DNA from: Xanthomonas sp. CFBP 8443
Lineage (GTDB): Bacteria; Pseudomonadota; Gammaproteobacteria; Xanthomonadales; Xanthomonadaceae
Reading direction: 5' to 3'
Assembly (NCBI RefSeq): GCF_025666195.1
Contig: NZ_CP102592.1
Coordinates: 3,720,001 to 3,784,000, forward strand
DNA length: 64,000 nt
Each line of letters opens with the position of its first letter. Position 1 is the first letter of the stretch. Position numbers and translations under genes: made by a program. The notes under the pieces were generated by a model. It ran no database searches. It was not told where the DNA came from and saw only the letters and a list, made by a program, of their open reading frames with translations. This document shows, piece by piece, positions 32,085 to 54,548 of this stretch.

Positions 32085-32299
32085 CCGGGACTGGGGACTC
32101 GGGACTGGGGACCCGGAAAGGCGGAAAGCCTAGCATCCATCGCCTCATCGGCACCTGGACGAGCGCACATCCGGAGGCTCCCAGACCGAAGGCCGTGGCG
32201 GCGAGCGAACATCAGCGCGCCTCCGCTTCTTCGAGTCCCGAGTCCCCGGTCCCGAGTCCCGACGCTTCGAGTCCCGAGTCCCCAGTCCCGAGTCCCGAG
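32085..32299. repeat. 14-base-unit inverted-repeat element, copy 1
   Basis: The left arm (32085-32116) reads GGGACTGGGGACTC repeated. The right arm (about 32231-32299) is its reverse complement, built from GAGTCCCGAGTCCCC units with an internal duplication. The arms enclose about 115 bp. The element fills the gap between dinG and tsaB and includes the dinG stop codon and the last 27-28 dinG codons. Other copies are at 34246, 50271 and 53644. Confidence 0.85.
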
Positions 32300-34239
32300 G
32301 CAAAAAACGCCCTCACCTCCTCCACATCGCGGGTCCGCGCGAACGGCGGCAGCGACTCCAGGAAGGTGCGGCCGTAGGACTTGGACAGCAGCCGCGGGTC
32401 GCACAGCACCAGCACGCCGCGGTCGGTCTCGCTGCGGATCAGCCGGCCCACGCCCTGCTTCAGCGCGATCACCGCCTGCGGCAGCTGTTCGTCGCGGAAC
32501 GGGTTGCCGCCGTCGCGGCGGATCGCGTCCAGCCGCGCTTCGAACACCGGATCGTCCGGCGCGGCGAACGGCAGCTTGTCGATCACCACCACGCTCAGCG
32601 CATCGCCGACCACGTCCACGCCTTCGCGGAAGCTGGCCGAGCCGAGCAGCACGCCGTTGCCGGACTCGCGGAAGCGTTGCAGCAAGGTCGCACGCGGCGC
32701 CTCGCCCTGCACGAACAGCGGCCACGGCCCGTCGCGCAGCGCCTCGGCGGCCTCGCGCAGCGCGCGGTGCGAGGCGAACAGCAGGAAGGCACGGCCCTGG
32801 GAGGCCTGCAACACCGGATGCAGCGCGGCGATCAGCGCGGTGCCGAAGCCGCGCGCGTTCGGGTCCGGCAGCGCCGGCAGGTAGCACAGCGCCTGCCGCG
32901 CCCAGTCGAACGGACTGGGCTGCAGCAAGGTCATCGGATCGCTCAGCCCCAGGCGGGTGGCGATGTGCTCGAAATCGCCCTTCACCGCCAGCGTCGCCGA
33001 GGTGAACACCCAGGCCGCGTGCGATTTCTCGCGATGCATGCGCAGCGGGCCGGACACGTCCAGCGGCGTGCGCTGGCAGCGGAAGCCGCGCGCGCTCAGT
33101 TCGTACCACAGCACGTCGTTGGACGGCGGCGCCGGCTCGGCCTCAAAATCCGGGATCGGCGCATCGTCGCCGAGCCAGTGGCCCAGCCGTGCGCGCATCT
33201 CCTGCGCGCGCGCGGCGCAGGCATCGAAACCGGGCGAGGCCTCGCGCAGCACCGCCAGGCTCTCCTGCAGCCGCGCCAGTTCCGCCAGCAGCGCGTCGAA
33301 GCCGTCGCGCACCTGCGGCTTGGCCAGCAAGCGCCATTGCGTGCCGCGGGTGGGCAGCCCTTCCATCGCCGCGCGCAGTTCGCGCAGGGCCTGTTCCAGC
33401 GCCTGCACCGGCGCCTGCAGGCTGGCCAGCGCGCCGGCGACGTGGCGGCTCTCGGCCAGGCAGTCGCGCGCCAGCTCCTGCAGCGGGCGCATGCCGAAGC
33501 TCTCGCCGAAGAAGTTCGCCGCCAGTTCCGGCAGCTGGTGCGCCTCGTCGATGACGAAGGCCTGCGCGCCGGGCAAGATCTCGCCGAAACCCTCCTGCTT
33601 CAGCGCCAGGTCGGCCAGCAGCAGATGGTGGTTGACCACCACCACATCGGCGGCCTGCGCGCGCTGCCGCGCCTGCACCACGAAGCACTCGCTCCAGAAC
33701 GGGCATTCGGTGCCGAGGCAGTTGTCCATCGTCGAGGTGACCATCGGCAGCAGCGGCGAATCGTCGGGCAGCGCCTCCAGTTCGGCGATGTCGCCGAAAC
33801 GGGTGCGCCCGCCCCAGGCGACGATGCGCTGGAACTGCGCGATCTGCTCGCGCGCGGTGAAGCGCGGCTCGCCCTTGGCCTGCTCCAGCCGGTACTTGCA
33901 CAGATAGTTGGCGCGGCCCTTCAGCAGCGCGCTGTTGAGGCCCACGCCCAGCGCCGCGCGCACCCGCGGCAGGTCGCGGTGGTAGAGCTGGTCCTGCAGC
34001 GCGCGGGTGCCGGTGGAGACGATGGTCTTCAATCCCGACAGCAGCGCCGGCACCAGGTACGCGTAGGTCTTGCCGGTGCCGGTCCCGGCCTCGGCCAGCA
34101 GCACGTCGCGCTGCTCGAACGCCTCGGCGATGGCCGCGGTCAAGCGCAACTGCGCCGCGCGCGGCACGAACGCATCGAGCTGGCGGGCAAGCGCACCGCC
34201 TTCGCTGAGCGCTTCGGTGCTGGCGTGGCTGAGGGACAT
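32212..34239 (-). CDS. DinG/YoaA-type XPD-family DNA helicase
   Basis: The 675-residue superfamily 2 helicase has Walker A in LLAEAGTGTGKTYAYL and a DEAH box in AFVIDEAHQLPEL. Four cysteines for an iron-sulfur cluster are seen (NYLCKYRL; NCLGTECPFWSEC). Motif VI is GVGRLIRSETDRGVLVLCD. Lengths and motifs fit YoaA of E. coli better than DinG; these proteins unwind 5'-tailed DNA during repair of replication damage. The native protein probably ends near VRAFFA: the final 27-28 residues (SGLGTGDSGLEASGLGTGDS and on) are encoded by the right arm of repeat copy 1. Another copy begins 7 bp upstream of the ATG, and no Shine-Dalgarno is visible. Confidence 0.92.
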   Translation of the reverse strand: MSLSHASTEALSEGGALARQLDAFVPRAAQLRLTAAIAEAFEQRDVLLAEAGTGTGKTYAYLVPALLSGLKTIVSTGTRALQDQLYHRDLPRVRAALGVGLNSALLKGRANYLCKYRLEQAKGEPRFTAREQIAQFQRIVAWGGRTRFGDIAELEALPDDSPLLPMVTSTMDNCLGTECPFWSECFVVQARQRAQAADVVVVNHHLLLADLALKQEGFGEILPGAQAFVIDEAHQLPELAANFFGESFGMRPLQELARDCLAESRHVAGALASLQAPVQALEQALRELRAAMEGLPTRGTQWRLLAKPQVRDGFDALLAELARLQESLAVLREASPGFDACAARAQEMRARLGHWLGDDAPIPDFEAEPAPPSNDVLWYELSARGFRCQRTPLDVSGPLRMHREKSHAAWVFTSATLAVKGDFEHIATRLGLSDPMTLLQPSPFDWARQALCYLPALPDPNARGFGTALIAALHPVLQASQGRAFLLFASHRALREAAEALRDGPWPLFVQGEAPRATLLQRFRESGNGVLLGSASFREGVDVVGDALSVVVIDKLPFAAPDDPVFEARLDAIRRDGGNPFRDEQLPQAVIALKQGVGRLIRSETDRGVLVLCDPRLLSKSYGRTFLESLPPFARTRDVEEVRAFFASGLGTGDSGLEASGLGTGDSGLEEAEAR

Positions 34240-34245
34240 TGGGGG

Positions 34246-34411
34246 GCGGGATTGGGGATTCGGGATTGGGGATTCGGCAAAAGCGGCGCGTCGGTTCGCT
34301 AACTACGCGTGCGCGCCGAAGATAGAGGGCACCACAGCGATACGGCTCATCCGCAACAACTGGTCAGCCGCGGCTTTTACCGAATCTCCAATCCCGAATC
34401 CCCAATCCCGG
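34246..34411. repeat. 14-base-unit inverted-repeat element, copy 2
   Basis: The left arm (34246-34284) contains two GGGATTGGGGATTC units and ends CGGCAAAAGC. The right arm (34373-34411) starts GCTTTTACCG and carries the reverse complement with one or two changes. The core is about 88 bp. It lies 7 bp from the dinG start and 8 bp from the lpoP-like stop, so it makes up nearly the entire intergenic region. Confidence 0.9.
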
Positions 34412-34418
34412 CTCTCAA

Positions 34419-34937
34419 TCAGTACCGCTTCACACCCGCCACCGTGCAGCGTTCGATCTGCGCATGCGCGGACGCCGCGTTCTCCTTCTGCCCGCGCGCC
34501 AGCCGCGATTGCTCGATCGTGGCCCAGTGCCGGCGGCACAGCGGGCCGGTCTGCGAGCCCAGGTCGATGGCGCGCTTGGCGAAGGCCTCGGCCTGCGCGT
34601 CGTCCTTCAGCAGCAAGGCCAGCTCGGCGCGGTCCTGCAGCAGCGCCGGGTCTTCCGGCACCAGTTGCAGGGCCTGGTCCAGTGCCGCCGCGGCGCCGGC
34701 AAGGTCGCCGGCCGCGCGCTTGCGCTTGGCGCCGTCGCGCAGGTCCTCGACCTGCGGATCGCGCAGCGGTTGCACGCTCAGTTCGGTGTCGTCGACGCCG
34801 CCGCTGGCTTCGATCGCGGCGACGCGCTGTGCCGGCGTGGTGGTGTCCACCGGCGGCGGGGGCGGCGGAGGCGGCGCGCTGACGCAGGAGGCCAGCAGCA
34901 GGCTGAGGGCGGCGATGGCGGGGGCGTATCGGGTCAT
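34419..34937 (-). CDS. TPR lipoprotein, probable PBP1b activator (LpoP-like)
   Basis: This 172-residue protein has a lipoprotein signal (TRYAPAIAALSLLLASC) with the lipid-bearing Cys in LLASC. A proline run (eight Pro) and a disordered stretch follow, then a TPR-like region (AAGDLAGAAAALDQALQLVP, DPALLQDRAELALLLKD, AEAFAKRAIDLG). It lies directly downstream of the PBP1b gene, about 16 bp away. In Pseudomonas aeruginosa, LpoP is a TPR-containing outer-membrane lipoprotein that activates PBP1b. Architecture and position point to the same role here, which I infer. An ATG at 34946 (three codons earlier) is also possible. Confidence 0.7.
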   Translation of the reverse strand: MTRYAPAIAALSLLLASCVSAPPPPPPPPVDTTTPAQRVAAIEASGGVDDTELSVQPLRDPQVEDLRDGAKRKRAAGDLAGAAAALDQALQLVPEDPALLQDRAELALLLKDDAQAEAFAKRAIDLGSQTGPLCRRHWATIEQSRLARGQKENAASAHAQIERCTVAGVKRY

Positions 34938-34953
34938 GGCAGGCATCCGTGGA

Positions 34954-37398
34954 TCATTGCGCTGGCGGTGTGGACGCCGCGTCGGCGGGCGGCGTTTCCT
35001 TCTTCTTGTCCAGGCCGAACCAGCTGCGCCAGCCGCCGCCCTGGCCCTGGCTCTCGCCGTCGGCCGGTTGCGCTTCCTCGGGCAGCACCTGCGGCGGCGC
35101 GCATGGCGCGTACGCCGGGGCGAAGCCGACCACGAACGGGAACTGGCGCGCGCCGGGGCAGCCGGGGTCGGTGCTGTTGCTGCCGGCCGGGTCCATCCAC
35201 TGCCAGTCGATGCCCTTGCCCTGCACCTTCAGCGGCGAACTCGGCAGCCGCGCGAAGATGCCCGACCACACCCGCATCGCGCCGGTGGCGCCGTACAGGC
35301 CGGTCTGCTTGTTCTGGTCGTTGCCGATCCAGATCACCGCCAGGTGATCGCCGGTGTAGCCGGCATACCAGCTGTCCACCCCATCGTTGCTGGTGCCGGT
35401 CTTGCCCGCAGGGGATAGCTTGCCCAGGCCGTCGCCGAGCAGCTGCCGCGCGGTGCCGTTGCTGACCACCTGCTGCAGCGCCAGCCCGACCAGGTTGGCG
35501 GCGACCGAATCGCCTTCCTGCGCCGGCGCCGGCGCCTTGTCGTAACGCTTGAGCAGCTTGCCCTGCGGATCGAGCACGCCGCGCACCGCGTGCAGCGGCT
35601 GGATCTCGCCGCCGGAGGCCAGGAACTGGTACAGCTGGGTCATCGCGTACGGGCTCTGGTCGGTCGCGCCCAGGATCAGCGAGGGATTGACCTCGGCCTC
35701 GAGCCCGGCCAGCACCTTGACCAGCTGCGCCACCCGCTCCGGCCCGACCTGCATGCCGATCCGCACCGTGGCCTGGTTGTACGAATGCGCCAGCGCATCG
35801 ACCAGGCGCACCGTGCCGTGGCTGCGGTTGTCCGAATTGCCCGGGGTCCAGCGCTTGCCGCGGCTGAGCTGCACCGTCACCGGCGAATCGTCGACCCAAC
35901 TGGCCAGCGAATAGCGGTCCGGCTGCGCCAGCGCCAGCAGGTACACGAACGGCTTGAGCAGCGAGCCGACCTGGCGCTGCGCCTCGATCGCGCGGTTGAA
36001 GCCGGGCTGCGACACGTCGCGGCTGCCGACCACCGCCAGCACGTCGCCGTTGTGGGTATCGGTCAGCACCAGGCCGGCCTGCAGCGGCGGCCGCTTCTTG
36101 TTGGTCTCCAGCGATTTGAGGGTGCGGGTCACCGCGCCTTCGGCATAGGCCTGCGCCGACGGCGACATGCCGGTCAGCACGCTCAGCCCGGCGCCCTGCA
36201 GCGCGCTTTCCGGGTAGTCGCGCGCCAGCTGGCGGCGCACCAGGTCCACGTACGCCGGGAAGCGGTTGGCCGCGACCAGCCCCGGATTGGCCGGCACGCC
36301 CAGCGGCGCGGCCAGCGCCTGGCGGTAGGTGGGCTCGTCGATCAGTTCGCTCTGGCGCAACTTGCCGAGCACGAAATTGCGCCGGTCCAGCGCGCGCTCG
36401 GGATAACGGCGCGGGTCGTAGTAGGACGGTCCCTTGACCAGGCCGATCAGCAGCGCCACCTGTTCCGGCGGCAATGCGTCCAGCTCGCGCCCGAACCAGA
36501 ATTCCGCGCCCGAGGCCACGCCGTGGATCGCCTGGCTGCCGCGCTGGCCCAGGTACACCTGGTTCAGATAGGCCTCCAGGATGGTGCGCTTGTCGTAGCG
36601 CGCCTCCATGATCAGCGCGTACAGGATCTCGTTGAACTTGCGGGTGAGCGTCTGCTCCTTGCCGATGCCGAGCAGGCCGCTGCGCGCCAGCTGCTGGGTC
36701 AGGGTGCTGGCGCCCTGCCGGCTCTTGCCGCCGGAGCGCACCATCACCCACGCCGCGCGCACCATGCCGCTGAGGTCGATGCCGTGGTGGTAGTTGAAGT
36801 CGCGGTCTTCCACCGCCTGCAGGCCGGTGACCAGCAGCTCGGGCACTTCGTCAACACGCACCAGCCGCCGCTCTTCCTGCTTCTGCCCGTACAAGGTGGC
36901 GATGCGCGCCGGATCCAGCCGTGCGGTGGTCAGCGACTTGCGCGTCTGCGCATCGCGCAGCGCCGCCACGCGGCCGCCGGACAGGCTCACTTCCACCCGC
37001 TTGGGCGCGACCCGGCCGTCCACGTCGACGTAGCCGCGGCTGGCGATGACGAAGCGGTTGCCGTCCTGCTGATAGCTGCCGGGGCGCTGCGCGCCGGCGT
37101 CCTCGCGGTAGCTGGCCGCGTCCAGTTCGGTCTTCAGCGTCTGCGCGTCCATCGCCGTGTCCGGCGCCAGCGCCAGCGGCCGTGCGTAGACCCGGGTCGG
37201 AATCTGCCAGCGCAGTTCGCCGAAGCGCTGCGTCACCTGCTTGTTCAGATAGACCGTGTACGGGATCAGGAAGCCCAGGCCCAGCGCGGCTGCGGCCAGC
37301 CCCCAGGTGAGCAGGCGCCGGCGCCAGGGCGAGGCGCCGCTGTCGAGATCGTCGGTGTCCTGATCGTCGGTGTCGTTGTCGTCGTAGCGTCGTGGCAC
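34954..37398 (-). CDS. mrcB: Penicillin-binding protein 1B
   Basis: This 814-residue bifunctional peptidoglycan synthase has an acidic cytosolic N-terminus, one membrane helix at about residues 30-50 (LLTWGLAAAALGLGFLIPY) and a UB2H-like region. The glycosyltransferase domain carries the catalytic Glu in GLQAVEDRDFNYHHGID, then GASTLTQQLARSGLL. The transpeptidase domain has the nucleophile in QVGSLLKPFVY, SYN in LAHSYNQATV and KTGTS in LSPAGKTGTSNDG. It polymerises and cross-links peptidoglycan during elongation and division. The C-terminus is Pro/Gln-rich. Its activator candidate is the next gene, and it is divergent from a glycosyltransferase gene. Confidence 0.95.
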   Translation of the reverse strand: MPRRYDDNDTDDQDTDDLDSGASPWRRRLLTWGLAAAALGLGFLIPYTVYLNKQVTQRFGELRWQIPTRVYARPLALAPDTAMDAQTLKTELDAASYREDAGAQRPGSYQQDGNRFVIASRGYVDVDGRVAPKRVEVSLSGGRVAALRDAQTRKSLTTARLDPARIATLYGQKQEERRLVRVDEVPELLVTGLQAVEDRDFNYHHGIDLSGMVRAAWVMVRSGGKSRQGASTLTQQLARSGLLGIGKEQTLTRKFNEILYALIMEARYDKRTILEAYLNQVYLGQRGSQAIHGVASGAEFWFGRELDALPPEQVALLIGLVKGPSYYDPRRYPERALDRRNFVLGKLRQSELIDEPTYRQALAAPLGVPANPGLVAANRFPAYVDLVRRQLARDYPESALQGAGLSVLTGMSPSAQAYAEGAVTRTLKSLETNKKRPPLQAGLVLTDTHNGDVLAVVGSRDVSQPGFNRAIEAQRQVGSLLKPFVYLLALAQPDRYSLASWVDDSPVTVQLSRGKRWTPGNSDNRSHGTVRLVDALAHSYNQATVRIGMQVGPERVAQLVKVLAGLEAEVNPSLILGATDQSPYAMTQLYQFLASGGEIQPLHAVRGVLDPQGKLLKRYDKAPAPAQEGDSVAANLVGLALQQVVSNGTARQLLGDGLGKLSPAGKTGTSNDGVDSWYAGYTGDHLAVIWIGNDQNKQTGLYGATGAMRVWSGIFARLPSSPLKVQGKGIDWQWMDPAGSNSTDPGCPGARQFPFVVGFAPAYAPCAPPQVLPEEAQPADGESQGQGGGWRSWFGLDKKKETPPADAASTPPAQ

Positions 37399-37491
37399 GG
37401 GGATGCGAGAATGTAAATTCCGGCGAGTCTAGCGCAGGCCAGCAGGCAGCGCGGCGCGGGTCCCCTTTTGTTTAAGCTGGAGTTGCAACGG

Positions 37492-39588
37492 ATGTCGATG
37501 TCCTGGGCGAACCTGCGCTACGCCCTGAACCGCCTGACCGGCCTGCTCCGGCGCGGCCTGGCCAGCCTGCGCACGCGCGGCTGGCGCAGCACCTGGCAGC
37601 GCCTGCGCGTGCATGCGCAGCCGTTGCCGCCGCCGCGGCGCGCGCTGTTCGCGGTCGCGCCGCGGCCGTTCGCGCCATTCGCGGTGCCGGCCAGCGACGC
37701 GCCGCTGGCGAGCATCGTGATCCCGGTCTACAACCACATCGCGCACACCCTGGCCTGCCTGCGCGCGCTGGCCGCGCACCCGCCGGCGGCGGCCTGCGAG
37801 ATCCTGGTGATCGACGACGGCAGCAGCGACGAGACCGTGCAGTGGCTACCGCAGATCCAGGGCCTGCACTACCACGTGCGCAGCCAGAACGGCGGCTTCA
37901 TCGCCACCTGCAACGACGGCGCGGCGCGCGCGCGCGGCAAGTACCTGGTGTTCCTCAACAACGACACGGTGCCGCAGCCGGGCTGGCTGGACGCCCTGCT
38001 GGACACCTTCGCGCAGGTGCCGCAGGCCGGCCTGGTCACCGCGCAACTGCTGTACCCGGACGGGCGCCTGCAGGAAGCCGGCGGCGTGGTCTTCGCCGAC
38101 GGCAGCGCCTGGAGCTACGGCCGCTTCGAATCGCCGGACGATCCGCGCTACGCCTACCTGCGCGCCATCGACTACGGCGCCGGCGCGGCGCTGGCGATCG
38201 AACGCGCACGCTTCCTGGCGCTGGGCGGCTTCGACACGCGCTACATGCCGGCCTACTACGAAGACACCGACCTCGCCTTCGCCGTGCGCAACGCCGGACT
38301 GCGCACCCTGCTGCAGCCGGCGAGCCAGGTGGTGCACGACGAAGGCACCAGCAACGGCACCGACACCGGTAGCGGAATCAAGGCGTATCAGGTGCGCAAC
38401 CGCGCCGTGTTCGCCGACAAATGGGCCAGCGTGCTGGCGCAGCAGCCGGCGCCAGGTACCACGCCGACACCGGCGCTGTTGCACCGGCACCAGCGCCAGG
38501 TACTGATCATCGACGAGGCGCTGCCGCAACCGGACCGCGACTCGGCCTCGCTGCGCCAGCTCAACCTGATCCGCCTGCTGCTGCAGGAAGGCGCGCACGT
38601 GGTGCTGGTGCCCAGCGGCCGCGAATACGCCAGCCGCCACAGCGAGGCGCTGCAGCGGCTCGGCGTGGAGGTGTGGTACGCGCCGTACCTGAAGAGCCTG
38701 AGCGGATTCCTGCAGGAGCATGGCGCGCGCTTCCACGCCGTGCTGCTGGTGCGCCACCACGTCGCCCACGCCTGCCTGCCGCTGCTGCGCCGCTTCGCGC
38801 CGCAGGCGCGGCGGCTGTTCGACACCGTCGACCTGCACTACCTGCGCGAGCGCCGCGGCGCCGAGCTGGCCGGCGACGCACGCCTGCTGCGCGAGGCCGA
38901 ACGCACCCGCGCGCGCGAACTGGAGGTGATGGCCCAGGTCGATGTCACCGTGCTGGTCAGCGAGGTCGAACGCGCGCAGTTGCAGCGCGAAGCGCCGCAG
39001 GTGCGCACCGCGCTGATCTCCAACCTGCACGAGGTCGCCGGGCCGGGCCTGCCGTGGGCGCAGCGCCGCGACCTGGTGTTCGTCGGCGGCTTCCGCCATG
39101 CGCCCAACGTCGACGCGATGCGCTGGTTCCTGCAGGAGGTGTTTCCGCCGCTGCGCGCGCTGCTGCCGGAACTGCGCTTCCACTGCATCGGCGCCGATAT
39201 GCCCGAGGACATCCGCCGCCTCGGCACGGCCACGCCCGGGGTGGAGCTGCTCGGCCACGTGCCGGACATCGTCCCCTACATGGACGACATCCGCATCGCG
39301 GTGGCGCCGCTGCGTTTCGGTGCCGGGGTCAAGGGCAAGGTCAACCTGAGCATGGCCCACGGCCAGCCGGTGGTGGCCACCCCGTGCGCGGTGGAAGGCA
39401 TGCACCTGCGCCACGGCGAGGACGTGCTGATCGCCGAGACCGCGCCGCAGTTCGTCGCTGCACTGGCGCAGCTGTACACCGACGAGACGCTGTGGAACAC
39501 GCTGGCGGGCAATGGCCTGCGCAACATCGCTACCCACTTCTCGCTGGATGCGGCACGCGCCACGGTGCGACAGGTGTTTCTCGACTAG
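37492..39588 (+). CDS. Two-domain glycosyltransferase (GT2 + GT4-like)
   Basis: The 698-residue protein joins two transferase folds. The N-terminal family 2 domain begins near residue 70 with ASIVIPVYNHIAHTLACLRA. It has LVIDDGSSDETV, the metal-binding VFLNNDTVPQPGW and the acidic YYEDTDLAFAVRNAG. The C-terminal part (from about residue 340) resembles GT-B enzymes: VLVPSGREYASRHSEALQRL, DLVFVGGFRHAPNVDAMRWF, LLGHVPDIVPYMDDIRIAVA and FGAGVKGKVN. Such fusions usually build surface polysaccharides or decorate glycans; the acceptor is unknown. ATG 37492 is preferred (GGAG 9 bp upstream) over a TTG at 37468. No other polysaccharide gene is adjacent. Confidence 0.85.
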   Translation: MSMSWANLRYALNRLTGLLRRGLASLRTRGWRSTWQRLRVHAQPLPPPRRALFAVAPRPFAPFAVPASDAPLASIVIPVYNHIAHTLACLRALAAHPPAAACEILVIDDGSSDETVQWLPQIQGLHYHVRSQNGGFIATCNDGAARARGKYLVFLNNDTVPQPGWLDALLDTFAQVPQAGLVTAQLLYPDGRLQEAGGVVFADGSAWSYGRFESPDDPRYAYLRAIDYGAGAALAIERARFLALGGFDTRYMPAYYEDTDLAFAVRNAGLRTLLQPASQVVHDEGTSNGTDTGSGIKAYQVRNRAVFADKWASVLAQQPAPGTTPTPALLHRHQRQVLIIDEALPQPDRDSASLRQLNLIRLLLQEGAHVVLVPSGREYASRHSEALQRLGVEVWYAPYLKSLSGFLQEHGARFHAVLLVRHHVAHACLPLLRRFAPQARRLFDTVDLHYLRERRGAELAGDARLLREAERTRARELEVMAQVDVTVLVSEVERAQLQREAPQVRTALISNLHEVAGPGLPWAQRRDLVFVGGFRHAPNVDAMRWFLQEVFPPLRALLPELRFHCIGADMPEDIRRLGTATPGVELLGHVPDIVPYMDDIRIAVAPLRFGAGVKGKVNLSMAHGQPVVATPCAVEGMHLRHGEDVLIAETAPQFVAALAQLYTDETLWNTLAGNGLRNIATHFSLDAARATVRQVFLD

Positions 39589-39676
39589 GACGTTGCGGCG
39601 TTGGCGGCCGCTGCCGGCAGCGCAGATGCAGCGGCTCGGAGCGGCCCGAATGACCGATCGCCGCCCAGCCGTATCG

Positions 39677-40372: not shown

Positions 40373-40527
40373 CAACGTACCAGCAGCCAGCAGAAGCGAT
40401 TCCGGGCGGTCTCGCACCATCGCCCGGGGCGAAACAGCGGCGGAACGGTGCGCTTCGCCAACCATCGGAACGAATCCCAAGGGTCCAACATCCCTCCTGC
40501 AGCAATCGGATTCTCTGCGCAAGACGC

Positions 40528-44677: not shown

Positions 44678-44738
44678 TCGCGCGTTAGCCCCTTTCCCGA
44701 AACGATGTGACCGGCCAGGCGCCGTAGACGGAGACCGG

Positions 44739-45638: not shown

Positions 45639-45663
45639 GCCATCCACCTGTGAGCATCCATCC

Positions 45664-47803: not shown

Positions 47804-47955
47804 GCGCTGGGGCCCTGCCCGCCGCCCGCGCCAACCGCGATCCGCGACGGCGTGGATGGCGCGCAACCCGGCACGACGGCGCGCCGCCACCCACCCGGCA
47901 CCGGCGGCGCGGCTTGCGACTACACTAGCCCGCATCCCACTGCCCGGATCCCGCC

Positions 47956-48468
47956 ATGCTGCTTGCGCGCCTCACTCCCCTGGTCCTGTGCGCGGCGCTC
48001 GCCGTGTCCGCCGCTCCCGCCGCCGCCCAACGCACCGTCGCCGGCGACCTGCAGACGCAGATGTCGGCGCAGGAGTTCAAGGCCGCCGGCCTGGACAAAC
48101 TGTCGCCACAGGAACTGGCCGCGCTGAACGATTGGCTGCAGGGCAAGGTCGCCAAGGAAACCGCGGTGGCGCTGGAGAAGGCCAAGGAAGAAGGCCGCCA
48201 GGAAGTGATCGTGAAGAACCGCGGCTTCTTCGACTTCGGCAGCCAGGAGCCGATCGTCAGCACCCTGGTCGGCGACTTCACCGGCTTCTCCAAGGGCCGC
48301 CGCTATGTGCTGGCCAACGGCCAGGAATGGGAGCAGACCGAATCGGCCAGCCTGAGCAGCGTGCACCGCAGCGCGCCCAAGGTGCGGATCAAGCCCGGCA
48401 TCGCCGGCGTGTGGTACATGCAGGTCGACACCTACAACACCCAGGCCAAGGTCCGGCGCGTCAAGTAA
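47956..48468 (+). CDS. Exported protein of unknown function
   Basis: This 170-residue protein has a clear signal peptide (LLARLTPLVLCAALAVSAAP, cleavage near AAAQ). The mature part starts with a helical segment, MSAQEFKAAGLDKLSPQELA, then a charged helix rich in Glu and Lys. It ends in a beta-rich half (FGSQEPIVSTLVGDFTGFSK, NGQEWEQTESASL, WYMQVDTYN). It resembles short periplasmic proteins common in Xanthomonas and relatives, but I do not know a function. It lies 152 bp after pqqE and 10 bp before the ClC gene, so it may be cotranscribed with the latter. Confidence 0.75.
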   Translation: MLLARLTPLVLCAALAVSAAPAAAQRTVAGDLQTQMSAQEFKAAGLDKLSPQELAALNDWLQGKVAKETAVALEKAKEEGRQEVIVKNRGFFDFGSQEPIVSTLVGDFTGFSKGRRYVLANGQEWEQTESASLSSVHRSAPKVRIKPGIAGVWYMQVDTYNTQAKVRRVK

Positions 48469-48478
48469 GGCGCGTGCC

Positions 48479-50260
48479 GTGAACGTGCGCCAGCACCCGC
48501 GGCTGGGCCTGGCCGACGCCTCGCACAGCCTGGCCGACGCGCTGCGCCGGCGCTTCCGCGCCAGCGACGTCTGGTTCATCGCGCTGGCGCTGCTGGTCGG
48601 CCTGATCGCCGGCCTGCTGACCCTGTTGCAGAGCGGCCTGGCGCACCACGCGCAGGCCTGGTTGTACGGCCTGGACGCCGACGCCCGGCTCAGCGCGCTG
48701 CCCGAACTGAGCCTGGGCCAGTTGCTGGTGTTGCCGCTGGGCGGACTGCTGGTCGGCCTGCTCGGCATGGCCGCACGCGCGCGCAAGCGCCAGCTGATCG
48801 ATGCGGTCGAAGCCAACGCACTGTACGGCGGGCGCATGTCGATGCGCGACAACCTGATCGTGTCCGCGCAGACCCTGCTGTCCAACGGCTGCGGCGCTTC
48901 GGTCGGGCTGGAAGCGGCGTACACGCAGATGGGCGCGGGCAGCGGCTCGCACCTGGGGCGGATCCTGCGCCTGCGTCGCGCCGACATCCGCACCCTGGTC
49001 GGCGCCGGCGCCGGCGCGGCCATCGCCGCCGCGTTCGGCGCGCCGCTGGCCGGCGCGTTCTATGCATTCGAGATCGTGATCGGCGCGTACTCGCCATCGG
49101 CGCTGGCGCCGGTCGCGGTGGCGTCGCTGGGCGCGGTGTTCGTGGCCCAGGCCGCCGGCGTGCAGCCGTACCTGCTGCCGGCCTCGGCGGCGTCCGCGCT
49201 GGAAGCGCGCGACTACGCGCTGTACGCGCTGCTCGGCGTGATCTGCGCGCTGCTGGCGGTGGCGGTGATGCGCCTGGTCACGGCGATCGAGCAGGCAGTC
49301 AACCGCAGCCCGCTGCCGCGCTGGGCGCGGCCGGTAGCCGGCGGCCTGATGCTGATCCCGCTGGCGCTGATCACCCCACAGGTGCTCTCCTCCGGGCACG
49401 GCGCGCTGCACCTGGACCTGACCAGCCCGACCTCGCTGCAATGGCTGGGCATGCTGTTGCTGCTCAAGTGCCTGGCCTCTGGCATCTCGCTCGGCTTCGG
49501 CTTCCGCGGCGGCCTGTTCTTCGCCTCGCTGTTCATGGGCTCGCTGGTCGGCGGCCTGTTCGCCGGCCTGTTGAACCTGGGCAGCGGCATGGCCCTGGTC
49601 GACGGCACCGCCGCCTCGCTGGCCGGCATGGCCGCATTGGCCGCAGCCGTGGTCGGCGCGCCGATGACGATGGCGATGCTGGTGCTCGAAGGCACCCACG
49701 ATTTCGTGCTGGCCAGCGCGGTGATGGTGGCGGTGCTGGTGGCCAACACCATCGTGCGCCAGGTGTTCGGCTATTCGTTCTCGACCTGGCGCCTGCACCT
49801 GCGCGGCGAGACCATCAAGAGCGCGCGCGACGTGGGCTGGGTCAAGCACCTGAGCGCCGGGCGGATGATGCGCAAGGACGTGCACCCGCTCGCCGCCGCC
49901 ACCTCGGTGGCCGAGTTCCGCCGCCGCTTCCCGCTCGGCTCGGGCACGCGCGTGGTGCTGGAGGACGAACACGGCCACTACGCCGGCCTGGTGACGCTGG
50001 CCGCGGCCTACGCCGACGGCGTCGATGCCGACGCGGCGATCGCCGACTACGCCGGCAACCGCGATGTGGCGCTGCGCGCCGACACCGACGTGGTCACCGC
50101 GATGCGCCAGTTCGACCTGACCCAGAGCGACGAACTTGCGGTGGTCGACGAACACGGCCAGATCCTCGGCGTGCTGACCGAAGGCTTCGTGCGCAAGCGC
50201 TACGCCGAGGAGCTGGACAAGCGCCAGCGCGAGCTGATGGGCGAGCGGGTGGATGATTGA
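48479..50260 (+). CDS. ClC-family chloride channel or exchanger with CBS domains
   Basis: The 593-residue protein has about ten or more hydrophobic helices in the first 430 residues and a cytosolic tail with CBS-like segments (DVHPLAAATSVAEFRRRFPL, DTDVVTAMRQFDLTQSDELA). ClC landmarks are SNGCGASVGLEAAYTQMGAG, AAFGAPLAGAFYAFEIVIGA and GFGFRGGLFFASLFMGSLVG. The gating glutamate of GREGP is kept, but the motif reads GLEAA. The start is a GTG at 48479. A short inverted-repeat element follows the stop codon by 10 bp. Confidence 0.88.
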   Translation: MNVRQHPRLGLADASHSLADALRRRFRASDVWFIALALLVGLIAGLLTLLQSGLAHHAQAWLYGLDADARLSALPELSLGQLLVLPLGGLLVGLLGMAARARKRQLIDAVEANALYGGRMSMRDNLIVSAQTLLSNGCGASVGLEAAYTQMGAGSGSHLGRILRLRRADIRTLVGAGAGAAIAAAFGAPLAGAFYAFEIVIGAYSPSALAPVAVASLGAVFVAQAAGVQPYLLPASAASALEARDYALYALLGVICALLAVAVMRLVTAIEQAVNRSPLPRWARPVAGGLMLIPLALITPQVLSSGHGALHLDLTSPTSLQWLGMLLLLKCLASGISLGFGFRGGLFFASLFMGSLVGGLFAGLLNLGSGMALVDGTAASLAGMAALAAAVVGAPMTMAMLVLEGTHDFVLASAVMVAVLVANTIVRQVFGYSFSTWRLHLRGETIKSARDVGWVKHLSAGRMMRKDVHPLAAATSVAEFRRRFPLGSGTRVVLEDEHGHYAGLVTLAAAYADGVDADAAIADYAGNRDVALRADTDVVTAMRQFDLTQSDELAVVDEHGQILGVLTEGFVRKRYAEELDKRQRELMGERVDD

Positions 50261-50270
50261 GTGAGAGGCC

Positions 50271-50362
50271 GGGATTTGGGATTGGGGATTGGGGATTCGT
50301 AAAAGCGATTACGGATGTCTGATCGCGCGCTTTGCGCTTTTACGAATCCCCAATCCCGAATC
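50271..50362. repeat. 14-base-unit inverted-repeat element, copy 3
   Basis: The left arm (50271-50306) has GGGATT units and ends ATTCGTAAAAGCG. The right arm (50335-50362) starts CGCTTTTACGAAT and carries CCCCAATCCCGAATC. The core is only 28 bp, so the element could form a long hairpin. It fills the gap between the convergent ClC and hrpA genes, and the hrpA stop codon (50361-50363) lies at its edge. Confidence 0.9.
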
Positions 50363-53300
50363 ACCGCAACTGAGCCACCCGCTGCGCCAGCTTCTTCGCC
50401 GAGATCCCGGCCTTGGCGCCCAGCTCCTGCGCGAACAGCGACACGCGCAATTCCTCCAGGTCCCAGCGCAGCGCCTGCCATTGCGGATCGCCGCTGCGCC
50501 CGGCCGCGGCGGCGGCAGCCAGCGCGTCGACGAACGGCTTCAATTCCAGCATCCGCGCCTGGTCGCGCGCCGGGTCGCGCTTGGCGCGTTCGGCGCGCAG
50601 GATCATCGCGCGCAGGTAGCGCGGGAACTGCGCCAGCGCCGTCGCCGGCGTCTCGCGCAGGAAGCCCGGATGCACCAGCGCCGCCAGCTGCGCGCGCAGG
50701 TCGTCGAGGTTGCCGCTGGCCCAGCCCATCAGCGGCGATTCCAGCTGCGGCTTCAGTTCCGCCGCCGCGCCCATGATCGCCTCGGCCAGTTTCAGCCGCT
50801 CCATCGCCTCGCCGAACAGCTGCTTGCCGGCGGCATCGCGGCGCTGGGCGAAGCTGCCGGGGTCGCGGATCGCGTCCAGGCCATCTTCGAGCAATGCATT
50901 CAACGCCGCATCGACCAAATCGCCGCGCAGCCGCTCCTGCGACTCGATCGCCGCATACAGCAGCCCGGTCTTCGGCGACACCGGCAGTTGCTTGCGTGCC
51001 TGCTTGACCTTGTCCGCCAGCGCGATCTCCAGCAGCCGGCGCACGCCGCGCGGATGTTCGGCCTCGGCCTGCGCGCGGTCGGCGAAGATGCGCAGCGCCG
51101 CGGCCTCGCCTTCGTCGACCAGCGCCGGATACGCCGGCACGCCGGCTTCGCCCGGCACCTGCAGCGGGATCGGCGCGGACGGGAATTCGCGCAGCCCGTC
51201 GGCGGCCATTTCGCGTCCGGCGCGGGCCGCGAACGCCTGCCCGGCGCGGTCGCCGAAGCGCGCGCGCAGCGCCTCCAGGTCGCGCGCTTCGGCCAGCACT
51301 TTGCCGGCGTCGTCGCGCAGCCGCAGGTTCATGCGCAGATGCGGTTCCAGCGTGGTCTCGTCGAAGTCCAACGCACTCAGCGCCGCGCCGGTGGCGCGCT
51401 GCAGGAAACGCGCCAGCTCGCCGCGGATGTCGTCGGCGCTGGGCTGCGGGAACGCCTCGTAGAAGGCGCGGGCGAAATCCGGCGCGGGCACGTAGTTGCG
51501 GCGCAGCGCCTTGGGCAGGCTACGAATCAGCGCCGCGGCCTTGTCGGCGACGAAACCCGGCGCCAGCCACGACAGCCGCGCCGCATCCAGCGCGTTGAGC
51601 AGGTGCAGCGGCACCTCCAGGGTCACGCCGTCGTCGGCCGCGCCGGGCTCGAATTTATAGTGCAGCGCCAGCCGCGCGTCGCCCAGCGCGAAGTACTTCG
51701 GATAGCGATCGGCCTCGCTGCCCTCGCCCGGCAGCAGGTCGGTCAGCGACCAGTGCAGCGCGCGCCGCTGCTCCGGCGGCAGCGCCTTCCACCACGCGTC
51801 CAGGCCGGCGGCGGAGTGGATCTCGCCCGGAATCCGGTCCAGGTACCAGCGCGCCTGCCAGTCCTCGTCGGCGACGATGCCGGCGCGGCGCAGCTTGGCT
51901 TCTTCCTCGTGCGCCTGCGCCAGCACCTTCTGGTTGTCGGCGACGAAACTGGCGCGGGTGTTGATCTCGCCCGGCACCAGGCCCTGGCGCACGAACAGCT
52001 CGTGCGCGCCGGGCGGATCGATACGGCCGTAATGCACCGGCTTCTTCGGCGCCAGCACCAGCCCGAACAGGCTGATCTGTTCGGAGGCCAGCACCTGCCC
52101 CTGCGCGCGCGACCAGTGCGGGTCGAAGTGCTTGCGCGCCAGCAGGTGCGGCAGTTCGGCGATGACCCAGTCCGGCTCGACCGCGGCATTGGTCAGGCCC
52201 CACACCTTCTGCGTGTCCAGCAGCGTGGCCGGCAGCACCCACGGCGGCGGCTTGCGGGCAAGCGTGGAGCCGGGGAACAGCAGGAAACGGCGCTGCCGCG
52301 GCGCCAGGAAATCGCCCTTCTCGGTGCGATGGCCGACCTGCGTCGGCAGGCCGGCGAGCAGCGCGCGATGCAGCGCCTGGTAGGCGGCGGCGCGTTCGCG
52401 CTCGCTCGCACGTGGCGCGTCGTCGGCCGCATTGGCCGGCGGCGCGGGCCTGGTCTCGACCGGCGCCGCCGTCGGCTCGCTGCGCCCTTCGCGCGCCAGC
52501 CGCGCGGCACGGTGCAGCTGCCCGCGCGTGGCCCGCGCATTGGTCTCGGCATCGCGCGCCGGCGGCAGCGACGCGGCGCCGGCCAGCAGCGGCAGCAGCG
52601 AGGCCGCCGCCGGCTCCTCGCTCCAGCCCAGTTCCTCGCACAGCAGGTGCAGCTGGCGGTGCAGTTCGCGCCACTCGCGCATGCGCAGGAAGCCGAGGAA
52701 CTGCCGCCCGCACCAGTCGCGCAGCTTGGACTGGGTCAGCTCCTCATGCGCCTGCCGATAGCCGTCCCACAGGCGCAGGATGCCGACGAATTCCGAGCGC
52801 GCATCGGCGAACTTGGCGTGCGCGTTGTCGGCCGCCTCGCGCGCTTCCGGCGGGCGCTCGCGCGGGTCCTGGATGCCCAGGAACGCGGCGATCACCAGCA
52901 TCGGCCGCAGGCAGCCATGCTGCTGCGCGGCCACCAGCATCCGCGCCAGCTTCACGTCCACCGGCAGCCGCGCCATCTTGCGGCCGGTCTCGGTGAGCTT
53001 GCGCAGGCCATGCCGGTCGGGCTCGCCGACTGCGCCCAGCTCCACCAGCTGCTGCCAGCCGTCGGCGACCGCGCGCTCGTCCGGCGGCTCCAGGAACGGG
53101 AAATCCTCGATCCGCCCCAGGCCCAACTGCAGCATGCGCAGGATCACCCCGGCCAGGCTGGAGCGGCGGATCTCCGGATCAGTGAATTCCGGCCGCGCCT
53201 GGAAATCGGCCTCGGCGTACAGCCGGTAGCAGATACCTTCGGCCACGCGCCCGCAGCGGCCCTTGCGCTGGTTGGCGCTGGCCTGCGAGATCGGCTCGAT

Positions 53301-54548
53301 GTGCAGCCGGTCCAGCTTCTGCCGCGGACTGTAGCGCTTGACCCGCGCATAGCCCGGATCGACCACGTAGCGGATCCGCGGCACCGTCAGCGAGGTCTCG
53401 GCGACGTTGGTGGCCAGCACCAGGCGCCGCCGCGGGCCGGGATTGAACACCCGGTCCTGGTCGCTGTTGGACAGCCGCGCGTACAACGGCAGCACCTCGG
53501 TCTCGCGGTACTTGCGCCGCTCCAGCGCCTGGTGCGCATCGCGGATCTCGCGCTCGCCGGGCAGGAACAGCAGCACGTCGCCGCGCGGATCGAGCCGAGT
53601 GATCTCGTCCACCGCCGCCACGATCGCATCGTTGACTGTGAGGCCGGGATTGGGGAGTCGGGAGTCGGGAGTCGCAACCGCAACGGCCGTTCGCGGCGAA
53701 CGCTGGCCTTCTCGCGCTTCTGCCAATCCCGAATCCCCACTCTCCAATCCCGGCTCTTCCAGCGGTCGGTAGCGCACCTCCACCGGGAAGGTGCGGCCCT
53801 CGACGCTGATCACCGGCGCGCCGTCGAAATGTTCGGCGAAGCGCGCGGTGTCGATCGTCGCCGAGGTCACGATCACCTTCAGCTCCGGGCGCTTGCGCAG
53901 CAGCTGCTTGAGGTAGCCGAGCAGGAAGTCGATGTTGAGGCTGCGCTCGTGCGCCTCGTCGACGATGATCGTGTCGTAGCTGGACAGCCAGCGGTCGCTG
54001 GCGATCTCGGCCAGCAGGATGCCGTCGGTCATGAACTTGATCCGGGTCTCCTCGCCGACCCGGTCGTTGAAGCGCACCTGGAAGCCGACCACCCCGCCCA
54101 CCGGCGTGCGCAATTCCTCGGCCACGCGCGCGGCCACCGCGCGCGCGGCGATGCGCCGCGGCTGGGTGCAGCCGATCATGCCGGCGGCGCCGCGGCCGGC
54201 GGCCAGGCACAGCTTCGGCAGCTGGGTGGTCTTGCCCGAGCCGGTCTCGCCGGCGATGACCACCACCTGGTGCGCGCGGATCAGCGCCACGATGCGCTCG
54301 GCCTCGCGCGCGATCGGCAGCTGCTCGTCCAGGGTGATCGCCGGCTGCGCCGCCGCGCGCGCCTCGCAGCGCGCCCGTGACTGGCCCAGTGCCTGCTCGA
54401 ACGCGGCCTCCGCTGCGGGATTGCCGGGCGCGGCCTGCCAGCGCGACCATAGGCCGAACAGGCGGCCGCGGTCGCGGGTCAACGCCCCGTCGATCGCGTC
54501 GCGGCGCTCGCGCAGGCGGGCGGGCAATTGTTTTTCGATAGTGCTCAT
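50361..54548 (-). CDS. hrpA: ATP-dependent RNA helicase HrpA
   Basis: This 1395-residue DEAH helicase has Walker A in VIAGETGSGKTTQLPKLCLA, DEAH in TIIVDEAHERSLNIDFLLGY, SAT in VIVTSATIDTARFAEHF, then YARLSNSDQDRVF and QRKGRCGRVAEGICYRLY. HA2, OB and the long HrpA C-terminal region follow. HrpA resolves stalled or collided ribosomes in E. coli. A segment of about 37 residues between RPLEEPGL and NPGLTVNDAI is encoded by repeat copy 4 (53644-53753) inserted in frame between helicase motifs. The stop codon sits at the edge of repeat copy 3. ATG 54548 gives the expected N-terminus (MSTIEKQLPARLRERRD); an ATG at 54584 is possible. Confidence 0.93.
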   Translation of the reverse strand: MSTIEKQLPARLRERRDAIDGALTRDRGRLFGLWSRWQAAPGNPAAEAAFEQALGQSRARCEARAAAQPAITLDEQLPIAREAERIVALIRAHQVVVIAGETGSGKTTQLPKLCLAAGRGAAGMIGCTQPRRIAARAVAARVAEELRTPVGGVVGFQVRFNDRVGEETRIKFMTDGILLAEIASDRWLSSYDTIIVDEAHERSLNIDFLLGYLKQLLRKRPELKVIVTSATIDTARFAEHFDGAPVISVEGRTFPVEVRYRPLEEPGLESGDSGLAEAREGQRSPRTAVAVATPDSRLPNPGLTVNDAIVAAVDEITRLDPRGDVLLFLPGEREIRDAHQALERRKYRETEVLPLYARLSNSDQDRVFNPGPRRRLVLATNVAETSLTVPRIRYVVDPGYARVKRYSPRQKLDRLHIEPISQASANQRKGRCGRVAEGICYRLYAEADFQARPEFTDPEIRRSSLAGVILRMLQLGLGRIEDFPFLEPPDERAVADGWQQLVELGAVGEPDRHGLRKLTETGRKMARLPVDVKLARMLVAAQQHGCLRPMLVIAAFLGIQDPRERPPEAREAADNAHAKFADARSEFVGILRLWDGYRQAHEELTQSKLRDWCGRQFLGFLRMREWRELHRQLHLLCEELGWSEEPAAASLLPLLAGAASLPPARDAETNARATRGQLHRAARLAREGRSEPTAAPVETRPAPPANAADDAPRASERERAAAYQALHRALLAGLPTQVGHRTEKGDFLAPRQRRFLLFPGSTLARKPPPWVLPATLLDTQKVWGLTNAAVEPDWVIAELPHLLARKHFDPHWSRAQGQVLASEQISLFGLVLAPKKPVHYGRIDPPGAHELFVRQGLVPGEINTRASFVADNQKVLAQAHEEEAKLRRAGIVADEDWQARWYLDRIPGEIHSAAGLDAWWKALPPEQRRALHWSLTDLLPGEGSEADRYPKYFALGDARLALHYKFEPGAADDGVTLEVPLHLLNALDAARLSWLAPGFVADKAAALIRSLPKALRRNYVPAPDFARAFYEAFPQPSADDIRGELARFLQRATGAALSALDFDETTLEPHLRMNLRLRDDAGKVLAEARDLEALRARFGDRAGQAFAARAGREMAADGLREFPSAPIPLQVPGEAGVPAYPALVDEGEAAALRIFADRAQAEAEHPRGVRRLLEIALADKVKQARKQLPVSPKTGLLYAAIESQERLRGDLVDAALNALLEDGLDAIRDPGSFAQRRDAAGKQLFGEAMERLKLAEAIMGAAAELKPQLESPLMGWASGNLDDLRAQLAALVHPGFLRETPATALAQFPRYLRAMILRAERAKRDPARDQARMLELKPFVDALAAAAAAGRSGDPQWQALRWDLEELRVSLFAQELGAKAGISAKKLAQRVAQLR
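53644..53753. repeat. 14-base-unit inverted-repeat element, copy 4, in frame inside hrpA
   Basis: The left arm (53644-53673) reads CCGGGATTGGGGAGTC with two further GGGAGTC units. The right arm (53723-53753) is CCAATCCCGAATCCCC followed by ACTCTCCAATCCCGG. The core is about 50 bp. The hrpA frame stays open through the element; the encoded stretch begins GLESGDSGLAEAREGQ and ends ATPDSRLPNPGL. Confidence 0.88.

Follow-up and report, generated by a model that had tools for sequence, protein, structure and literature searches.

G-rich heptamer arrays of Xanthomonas at conserved addresses, with a spelling that differs between species

Four inverted repeats lie beside or within genes in the window, the whole 64,000-nucleotide stretch of DNA analysed here, which comes from a 5.24-Mb Xanthomonas genome (G000 in the comparisons below). 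What are these elements, and what keeps copies at separate sites alike? The original prediction described four inverted copies built of 14-base units. All four are present, with arms that face each other (convergent) around a core. The unit is a heptamer, however; the 14-mer is two heptamers, ending in G and in C, and this G/C alternation is common only in the ATT variant. The usual arm is (GGGANNS)x4, 27 bp long, and stands either alone or opposite a convergent partner across a variable core. The arm consensus is GCC-(GGGANNS)x4-CGNAAAAGCG, and its outer end often lies against a gene end.

The window copies and their repeat class

The arms in the window, and the two genes that they enter, are located as follows.

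32087-32113, plus strand: left arm of copy 1, four heptamers of the ACT/ACC variant, 8 bp from the start codon of a TsaD-domain ORF (31377-32078, minus strand)
32234-32260, minus strand: right arm of copy 1, four heptamers
32270-32296, minus strand: second right-hand array (duplicate) of copy 1, within the helicase reading frame
32212-34239, minus strand: YoaA/DinG-family helicase ORF, stop at 32212; the NCBIfam YoaA match covers residues 9-647 of 675
34248-34274, plus strand: left arm of copy 2, four ATT heptamers, 8 bp from the helicase start codon
34383-34409, minus strand: right arm of copy 2, four ATT heptamers (one base off), 9 bp from the stop of an ORF at 34419-34946 (minus strand)
50271-50297, plus strand: left arm of copy 3, four ATT heptamers, 10 bp past the stop of a ClC-channel ORF (48479-50260)
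50345-50364, minus strand: right arm of copy 3, three units, overlapping the hrpA stop codon (50361-50363)
50361-54584, minus strand: hrpA (HrpA helicase, 1407 aa), which reads copy 4 in frame as an enlarged linker
53646-53672, plus strand: left arm of copy 4, one ATT unit and then AGT units, within hrpA; ends set by eye
53725-53751, minus strand: right arm of copy 4, ATT/AGT units, within hrpA; ends set by eye

The predicted distance of 7-10 bp to the neighbouring start or stop codon holds at either end of copy 2 (8 and 9 bp) and for the left arms of copies 1 (8 bp) and 3 (10 bp), but not for the right arm of copy 3, which overlaps the hrpA stop, or for copy 4, which is inside hrpA. Copy 4 thus lies in no gap between genes, and the helicase frame runs through both right-hand arrays of copy 1; therefore, copy 1 is more than gap filler. 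Our array census caught copies 1-3 fully and copy 4 in part, because the AGT units fall outside its unit definition. Copy 2 could be placed in 13 of 14 relatives and copy 3 in only 3 of 9. An Rfam scan of the window returned a tRNA as the sole match.

With up to two mismatches allowed, GGGATTGGGGATTC has 15 matches in the window against 0.21 expected, a count that 100 shuffles never attained. Across the genome, there are 98 exact copies of the 14-mer (46 on the plus strand and 52 on the minus strand; 0 in the reversed control), so that copies are not few in either orientation. GGGAYTNGGGAYTNG has 735 matches versus 13 in the control, and the strict four-unit pattern has 384 versus 0 in the reversed control. 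Exactly four units are found in 192 of 287 arrays. The dominant units in this genome are GGGACT, GGGATT and GGGACC, not GGGAAT; the GGGAATC spelling GGGAATCGGGAATCGGGAA has 2 matches, as opposed to 108 for ATT and 324 for ACT (overlapping matches counted). Among 36 pairs of neighbouring arrays less than 400 bp apart in 860 kb, 34 are convergent, two lie on the same strand and none is divergent. Under a wider unit definition, six regions gave 100 convergent pairs out of 112, with 12 on the same strand and again none divergent. Single arms are also common. The paired orientation and the copy number bear out the prediction of a hairpin-capable inverted element in many copies.

The prediction held the form to be non-standard, but the class had already been described. 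The exact repeat strings found no match in a literature text search. According to the available sections of Rehm et al. 2015 (PMC4692102), Xanthomonas carries G-rich heptamers, GGGNATC, that are tandem, dispersed and mostly intergenic, with a preference for four units; convergent pairs (70 in Xcc, 75 in Xac) lie close to a gene end, the gene context is alike between Xcc and Xac in 83%, and oligonucleotides form G4 structures, with CD data for related spellings. The arrays studied here agree in being tandem (GGGANTN)n repeats of at least two units, dispersed and over-represented, in preferring four units and in forming convergent pairs. Their ACC units fall outside GGGANTN, and the strict rule in those sections, GGGAATC at least once, does not describe the dominant units. 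The window copies are members of this Xanthomonas class. The GGGGA(C/T)T repeats of Nostoc are presumably the ones called STRR. They are nearly identical to the Xanthomonas heptamers, form G4 structures and are biased to intergenic DNA, but include few convergent pairs as described in the same sections (PMC4692102), whereas the pairs here are mostly convergent.

Conserved addresses and altered genes

We followed 36 elements of a 400-kb region (two gaps counted twice) into four congeners. Both flanks were found in order in 124 of 144 comparisons, and 105 of these 124 retained an array of at least three units; 33 of the 36 elements have such an array in at least one congener. In one 400-kb region, 52 of 53 arrays fell within the 339 of 400 1-kb windows that are conserved in at least two congeners, and a single array fell in the other 61; accessory DNA there is nearly array-free. 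A broader form of the four-unit pattern matched 102 of 299 genomes of the order, and the presence of arrays is patchy between genera. In GPE 39 (G040), a nearly array-free relative, decayed arms were found at 6 of 10 distinct gaps tested.

The claim that the element reshapes genes was upheld: in-frame segments were found in hrpA, purL (twice), murF (identified by an NCBIfam scan at L121:801-2708) and valS, and the YoaA/DinG-type helicase carries a tail, encoded through the copy 1 arrays as GLGTGDSGLEASGLGTGDSGLEE. In HrpA (97% to X. bonasiae), the linker from YRPL to IVAA is 45 aa long with copy 4 and 18-28 aa in 14 matched relatives without copy 4, from a widened pattern applied to 20 sequences. 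In a coding test with 240-bp flanks, the frame was open throughout at 0 of 36 sites, probably owing to nearby gene ends; with the flanks set to 60 bp, 11 of 27 sites with at least three comparable genomes stayed open. Named proteins back the open frames at sites e3, e8, e9 and e20, and the others may be chance open frames. These cases show how repeats of this kind extend essential proteins by segments read in frame.

Dialects of the arrays, their flanks and cores

The two arms of a pair usually carry one heptamer variant, or dialect (32 of 34 pairs). This agreement exceeded chance in three of five genomes (G000, 0 of 10000 shuffles; G031, p 0.0003; G030, p 0.025) and was not significant in G044 (p 0.49), where nearly all arms are ATT, or in G046 (p 0.075). 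Species have their own dominant dialects, ATT, ACT, ACC or AAT, around the constant core GGGA, and G000 is mixed, with two or more dialects side by side. Among five congeners, the variant differed at 35 of 40 independent orthologous arm sets (37 of 42 before the doubly counted gaps e13/e14 and e21/e22 were removed). The mutual information between genome and variant was 0.607, compared with at most 0.197 in 2000 within-set permutations. Arms from different loci of the same genome were more alike (0.388) than orthologous arms from different genomes (0.294), which is the signature of concerted evolution; because the latter exceed unrelated arms of different genomes (0.212), some content has been inherited. 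Whereas the positions are ancient and for the most part shared between species, what they contain has been renewed repeatedly.

To our knowledge, dispersed repeats as short as 27 bp are generally regarded as too small for concerted evolution. In the genome stretches compared, the dialect differences at the same addresses point to an active copying or recognition process, as is implied by such repeats changing their spelling together between species about 5-7% apart. Mutation bias towards GC was rejected as the cause of the dialects: G031 has moved to the GC-richest variant, although its region is the lowest in GC among those compared and its flanks have shifted towards AT relative to G030 (2019 versus 1188).

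The change of dialect extends beyond the array in the best-sampled species pairs. The difference in the outer 8 bp was 0.15 for arms of the same variant (n=11) and 0.50 for arms of different variants (n=12) between G000 and G030, 0.16 (n=8) and 0.43 (n=12) between G000 and G044, and 0.04 (n=3) and 0.57 (n=11) between G030 and G031. No effect was seen between G000 and G031 (0.48, n=7; 0.46, n=14) or between G031 and G046 (0.54, n=3; 0.38, n=4); the other five species pairs have at most five arms in one class, or an empty class. Core identity was 0.78 when the variant was the same, 0.74 when one arm differed and 0.56 when both did (shuffled null 0.49); in 25 of 50 comparisons with both arms different, it was still above 0.6. 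At e16 and e20, the arms changed and the core stayed homologous. Both observations suggest that arm-only and whole-element renewal may be mixed. We consider the arm agreement, the species dialects, the variant difference at orthologous arms and the flank and core changes to be new. The available sections of Rehm et al. (PMC4692102) report variation in length and sequence, and contain no mention of species dialects, arm agreement, replacement of flanks, decay within an array-poor lineage or elements read in frame by named essential genes.

Most cores are unlike any other core. Four elements, at positions 4168303, 4169768, 3911924 and 3936578 of contig C1 of G000, have a common 41-50-bp core of their own, although their arms are of the ACC or the ACT type; in another group of three, the shared sequence is confined to stretches with a nested REP-like sequence. 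The core common to the four elements gives limited support to the predicted mobility. A MITE-like element could be moved by a transposase encoded elsewhere, with dialects as subfamilies and new copies landing preferentially in old gene-end copies. The inverted termini, a subfamily consensus that takes in the seventh base and the inner flank, and the replacement of the core along with the arms at many fixed sites would all fit. However, neither the target-site duplication nor the clean empty site that marks a MITE was seen by eye at 15 aligned A-region sites or at window copies 1, 2 and 4, single arms are common, and many sites would require repeated insertion at one place. We regard this explanation as distinctly unlikely.

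REPINs are high-copy extragenic inverted pairs with a variable spacer, and they form sequence families. As far as that description reaches, the arrays resemble them in high copy number, extragenic inverted pairing, variable spacer and division into sequence families. RAYT genes were surveyed at one locus per genome, 20 in total. The REPs here have the sequence GTAGGAGCGGCTTCAGCCGCGAC or GTGGGAGGGACTTCAGTCCCGAC and adjoin the RAYT gene, with a REP-like core within 500 bp at 12 of 20 loci, including all ten of the genus; by contrast, arrays of at least three heptamers occurred at 0 of the 20 Y1_Tnp loci, and the arrays are not GTAG-type tagged palindromes adjoining a RAYT gene. RAYT was therefore rejected as the mover. 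Among 12 genomes of the genus, the presence of Y1_Tnp tracks that of the arrays, with G028 and G040, both array-poor, as the only genomes without it; X. populi (G013) lacks a Y1_Tnp match although arrays are present (27 matches).

Candidate processes of renewal

The reading that we tentatively prefer, at somewhat less than even confidence, is that arms and elements at conserved addresses by gene ends are copied anew from one dispersed copy to another. Renewal would take entire arms or elements from copies elsewhere that carry the dialect prevailing at the time, by ectopic gene conversion or by template-switch repair primed in the G-rich arrays, and the second arm could be copied from the first through the hairpin. 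A role as 3'-end hairpins or G-quadruplexes may be the reason why gene ends tolerate or retain the copies. The decayed arms of GPE 39, read as a loss of renewal, count in favour, and renewed and decayed arrays in sister lineages offer a direct test bed for a repeat class of open function. No donor-recipient pair or mapped conversion tract was caught, and ectopic conversion by itself does not explain the genome-wide direction of a dialect.

Alternatively, the arrays could be read by a sequence-specific protein, for instance a DNA-uptake receptor of the kind that ComP is for the DUS of Neisseriaceae or a chromosome-binding protein, whose changed taste would pull all sites to a new spelling through selection or uptake-biased recombination. 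DUS are about 10-12 bp long. In the available parts of one account (PMC3630211), DUS are a dispersed short motif with species dialects, a constant core and co-occurring dialects; inverted pairs are linked to terminators, and some genera lack the motif. The arrays parallel this in their species dialects around GGGA, in the mixed dialects of G000, in convergent pairs at gene ends, in tolerance within coding sequence and in patchiness between genera; their near absence from accessory DNA (one 400-kb region) and the loss of renewal in GPE 39 also count in favour. Judged by sequence, they would then form, in the Xanthomonas group, a dialect system akin to DUS, with several hundred conserved chromosomal addresses kept alike by a putative reader or copier, respelled genome-wide when the reader changes, also inside essential genes, and left only as decayed arms in reader-less lineages. 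However, DUS number thousands per genome, are not tandem heptamers and have ComP as a known receptor (PMC3630211, same parts), and a dialect change by selection on bases gives no reason to expect altered flanks and cores. GspH/FimT-type pilins number 3-4 per genome in 20 of 20 genomes, including the array-poor G040 (GPE 39) and G028 and the array-free S. maltophilia (G016), which shows no loss of a receptor and lends no support to the idea that array-poor genomes lost an uptake pilin. A reader is a doubtful candidate, and the full dialect system no less so, with the recopying of arms or elements still preferred to both.

Copying could also draw on an RNA template, if a telomerase-like reverse transcriptase added heptamers to broken ends that were then rejoined. 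In each arm, the G-rich 3' strand is directed towards the centre, which is the geometry expected of a healed double-strand break; the 34 convergent and 0 divergent of 36 close pairs, the favoured unit number and a spelling as if from one template also fit, and DRT10 is, in the available part of its description (PMC12632851), a bacterial reverse transcriptase that makes tandem-repeat DNA from an RNA template. PF00078 matched in 11 of 29 genomes with no relation to arrays, and was absent from G000 and from the array-rich G043, G041, G033, G036, G008, G009 and G024. Because this model found no match in the window's genome, templating was rejected for now, and we think it very improbable.

Plain simple-sequence evolution would replace copying between sites by heptamer mutation, slippage that homogenises the array and hairpin-templated correction of the arms, with a G-quadruplex or terminator function keeping four units. 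Some long arrays (8, 11 and 15 units) and mixed arrays look slippage-like, the unit number was constant in only 12 of 42 orthologous sets, and four G-runs are the quadruplex minimum, as stated in the available sections of Rehm et al. 2015 (PMC4692102). A-/T-tracts at both arms (7 of 37 cores versus 0 of 111 controls), one strong core hairpin and alternative hairpins at e34 and e35 would suit a terminator. However, these processes give no common direction across loci and oppose the drift in base composition in G031, and they predict unchanged flanks when the variant changes, contrary to the results for G000-G030, G000-G044 and G030-G031. Such evolution is improbable on these grounds, and the expansion by slippage that was originally proposed fits poorly with the four-unit majority and with the base changes outside the array in the best-sampled species pairs.

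An intrinsic terminator is a hairpin just past a stop codon. The arrays resemble terminators, as far as sequence can indicate, in the hairpin after a stop, in the A-/T-tracts at some arms, which would suit bidirectional terminators, and in the other hairpins that take the slot in two array-less cases; they differ in their very long G-rich stem and in occurring singly and within coding sequence. Cores alone folded slightly better than shuffled sequences (mean z -1.0, control -0.18), a weak signal for cores as structured RNA. At e34 and e35, species without the array carry another hairpin in the same slot. Near 4028200 on contig C1 of G000, one core was seen by eye to hold a strong hairpin together with A- and T-runs.

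Structure of the repeat and its known class

The observation of repeats in the original prediction is sound, and all four inverted-repeat copies are present in the window. The proposed 14-base unit did not hold; the real unit is a heptamer, GGGANNS, and the 14-mer corresponds to its ATT variant, in which the seventh base often alternates between G and C (it is mostly C in ACT arms and mostly G in ACC arms). The arms fall into ATT, ACT, ACC, and AAT subfamilies, plus a rarer ACG, and the window copies are spelled as follows:

32085-32299, copy 1, ACT/ACC-type
34246-34411, copy 2, ATT
50271-50362, copy 3, ATT
53644-53753, copy 4, ATT mixed with AGT

The survey covered 860 kb of the window's 5.24-Mb genome (G000), in the two stretches 900001-1300000 and 3720001-4180000. 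They contain 114 arrays of at least two units; the reversed-sequence controls contain 15, all two-unit. The predicted paired orientation was borne out: among neighbouring arrays at most 400 bp apart, 34 of 36 are convergent and two same-strand, with no divergent case. Both arms carry the same variant in 32 of the 34 convergent pairs, with ACT and ACC counted as one class. The commonest arm consists of four heptamers (27 bp); across six regions, with the unit defined more broadly, the length is exactly four units in 192 of the 287 arrays that have at least three, and the reversed controls total 3. A C precedes the array in 82% of 85 arms of at least three units; on the inner flank the commonest bases are CGNAAAAGCG, each A occurring in 45-64%. 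One paired element (G000:C1, about 4028092-4028431) has a left array of 15 ACT units and a core with a strong hairpin, A- and T-runs, and REP-like sequence.

The claim that no standard element has this form was mistaken. Rehm et al. 2015 (PMC4692102) describe GGGNATC heptamers in Xanthomonas and Nostoc, with four units preferred; in the two Xanthomonas genomes that they counted, convergent pairs number 70 and 75. These repeats are mostly intergenic and close to a gene end, 83% keep their gene context between two species, and they form G4 in vitro; the authors left the function open. The window elements are members of this class in all but spelling. The literature searched, with subscription papers thinly covered and work on concerted evolution of such repeats in Xanthomonas included, yielded no further description of the heptamer element. 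The novelty lies in the concerted respelling at fixed addresses, the class itself being known.

Spelling at orthologous sites

Genomes differ by species in preferred spelling; none of the tested genomes of Stenotrophomonas, Lysobacter, and Arenimonas had a match to the AAT, ATT, or ACT spelling.

Table. Spelling counts, from a set of 28 genomes. Matches overlap, so long arrays count several times; ACC is left out.
Genome: AAT/ATT/ACT
Window genome: 2/108/324
X. bonasiae: 23/196/66
X. sp. NCPPB 1128: 7/137/2
X. sp. F10: 5/211/3
X. cucurbitae: 164/19/0
X. floridensis: 189/37/0
X. arboricola: 54/57/0
P. wuyuanensis: 12/7/71
[Pseudomonas] boreopolis: 0/202/25

We compared a 400-kb region of G000 with four congeners (G044, G030, G031, and G046; 92-95% identity over a 4-kb query). 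Both flanks were in order at 124 of 144 site comparisons, and an array was present in 105 of these. The main spelling is ATT in G044 and G030, ACC in G031, and ACT in G046; G000 is mixed. Spelling differs in 35 of 40 independent orthologous arm sets, each held by at least three genomes. Genome and spelling share a mutual information of 0.607, against a mean of 0.101 and a maximum of 0.197 in 2000 within-set permutations. Mean spelling similarity is 0.643 for arms within an element, 0.388 between loci of one genome, 0.294 for orthologous arms across genomes, and 0.212 for the remaining comparisons. Agreement between arms is above chance in G000, G031, and G030; G044 (p 0.49) and G046 (p 0.075) do not show this.

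Base composition as the driver of spelling was ruled out by G031, which has the GC-richest spelling yet the lowest regional GC (0.678 versus 0.699 in G030); its flanks differ from those of G030 toward AT at 2019 sites versus 1188. We tentatively favour recopying of arms and elements among dispersed copies. The strongest rival, a DUS-like dialect (as in DNA uptake sequences) driven by a reader, appears rather unlikely.

With respect to recopying, the outer 8 bp differ more where spelling differs than where it is the same in G000-G030 (0.50, n=12, versus 0.15, n=11), G000-G044 (0.43, n=12, versus 0.16, n=8), and G030-G031 (0.57, n=11, versus 0.04, n=3). The effect is absent in G000-G031 (0.46 versus 0.48) and G031-G046 (0.38 versus 0.54), and in each of the other five genome pairs one class is sparse or empty. 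In 86 comparisons, core identity is 0.78 with the same spelling (n=20), 0.74 with one arm differing (n=16), and 0.56 with both differing (n=50; shuffled null 0.49), although it exceeds 0.6 in 25 of these 50. In elements e16 and e20, the arms changed and the core is still homologous. Renewal therefore seems to be a mix of arm-only and whole-element events. Copying of entire elements can be seen in a single group: four G000 elements have a common 41-50-bp core, and two of them carry ACC arms, one ACT/ACC arms, and one ACT arms. Similarity was also found among three long cores, but their common stretch includes a nested REP-like sequence.

Gene context and in-frame elements

The gaps between genes are filled by copies 2 and 3, as predicted. 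The end of a YoaA/DinG-type helicase ORF reads through copy 1; of the 675 residues, the family match extends as far as 647, and the tail beyond it includes GLGTGDSGLEASGLGTGDSGLEE. The right arm of copy 1 is duplicated in the window (32270-32296). By eye, the right arm is multiplied at the copy 1 sites of G031 and G043 (L260, L268), with 2 and 4 arrays. Copy 4 is in frame within hrpA, in the linker following YRPL. Among 20 sequences compared, this linker has 43-45 residues in the window, X. bonasiae, X. sp. NCPPB 1128, and Pseudoxanthomonas winnipegensis, and 18-28 in 14; the pattern was unmatched in two (GPE 39 and S. maltophilia), and a looser match showed that the GPE 39 linker lacks the element. 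Further in-frame elements of G000, all from the 400-kb region compared above, are:

L115:11842-11977 and 12586-12699, e8 and e9, purL (twice)
L121:2469-2611, e20, murF
L114:18293-18319, e3, valS

At these sites the congeners have other spellings or no array.

At the e34 and e35 slots (G000:C1:1276011 and 1291776), in G030/G044 and G031, the array-less species have an unrelated hairpin directly after the stop codon; it looks as if terminator-like hairpins substitute for each other. The copy 3 slot of P. winnipegensis (L034) holds a different inverted repeat, of CCCCCT units. A putative terminator or G4 role of arrays at gene ends is plausible.

Decay, candidate agents, and distribution

Strict four-unit matches number one in the nearly array-free X. 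sp. GPE 39 (G040) and five in the similar genome G028. Orthologous GPE 39 gaps in 60 kb were scored against random segments drawn from that stretch. Six of ten distinct gaps outscore 95% of the random segments (8 of 12 when rows are counted, in which two gaps appear twice): those of e20, e21/22, and e25 have clear arms, such as three intact ACC units in murF, that of e13/14 has a weaker arm, and those of e15 and e24 have weak absolute scores. The other four gaps show no arm trace under this scoring. By eye, GPE 39 and G028 also seem to retain a degenerate arm, inner motif included, at their copy 1 site. Given the decayed arms, the arrays probably predate the GPE 39 lineage, and are probably cleaned elsewhere by something that this lineage lacks or no longer needs.

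Y1_Tnp matches occur in 26 of 29 genomes, with none in G028, G040, or X. populi (G013). No heptamer array was found at the 20 Y1_Tnp loci inspected, L237 (G000:C1:245001-253000) and 19 others; 12 of the 20 have a REP-like core at most 500 bp from the RAYT gene, reading GTAGGAGCGGCTTCAGCCGCGAC or GTGGGAGGGACTTCAGTCCCGAC. The window's genome has no PF00078 reverse transcriptase, and the GspH/FimT pilins did not vary among the genomes tested. G046 has 21 Y1_Tnp matches with near-equal high scores and one in-frame TAG within each, perhaps a recent IS200/IS605-like burst.

At least one four-unit match is found in 102 of 299 genomes of the order (39 of 85 genera, several families), but the true number of element-bearing genomes is lower, since part of the matches each consist of one long simple repeat that is spelled differently; the reversed control equals or exceeds the matches in some of the 299. 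In G060, which belongs to a different family within the order, the four-unit matches number 749 (control 38), almost twice as many as in the window's genome. The reversed pattern is abundant in the genomes G084, G098, and G071 (382+491, 106+56, and 45+77 matches), so that a distinct G-rich heptamer family, AGGGSNN, seems to be present there.
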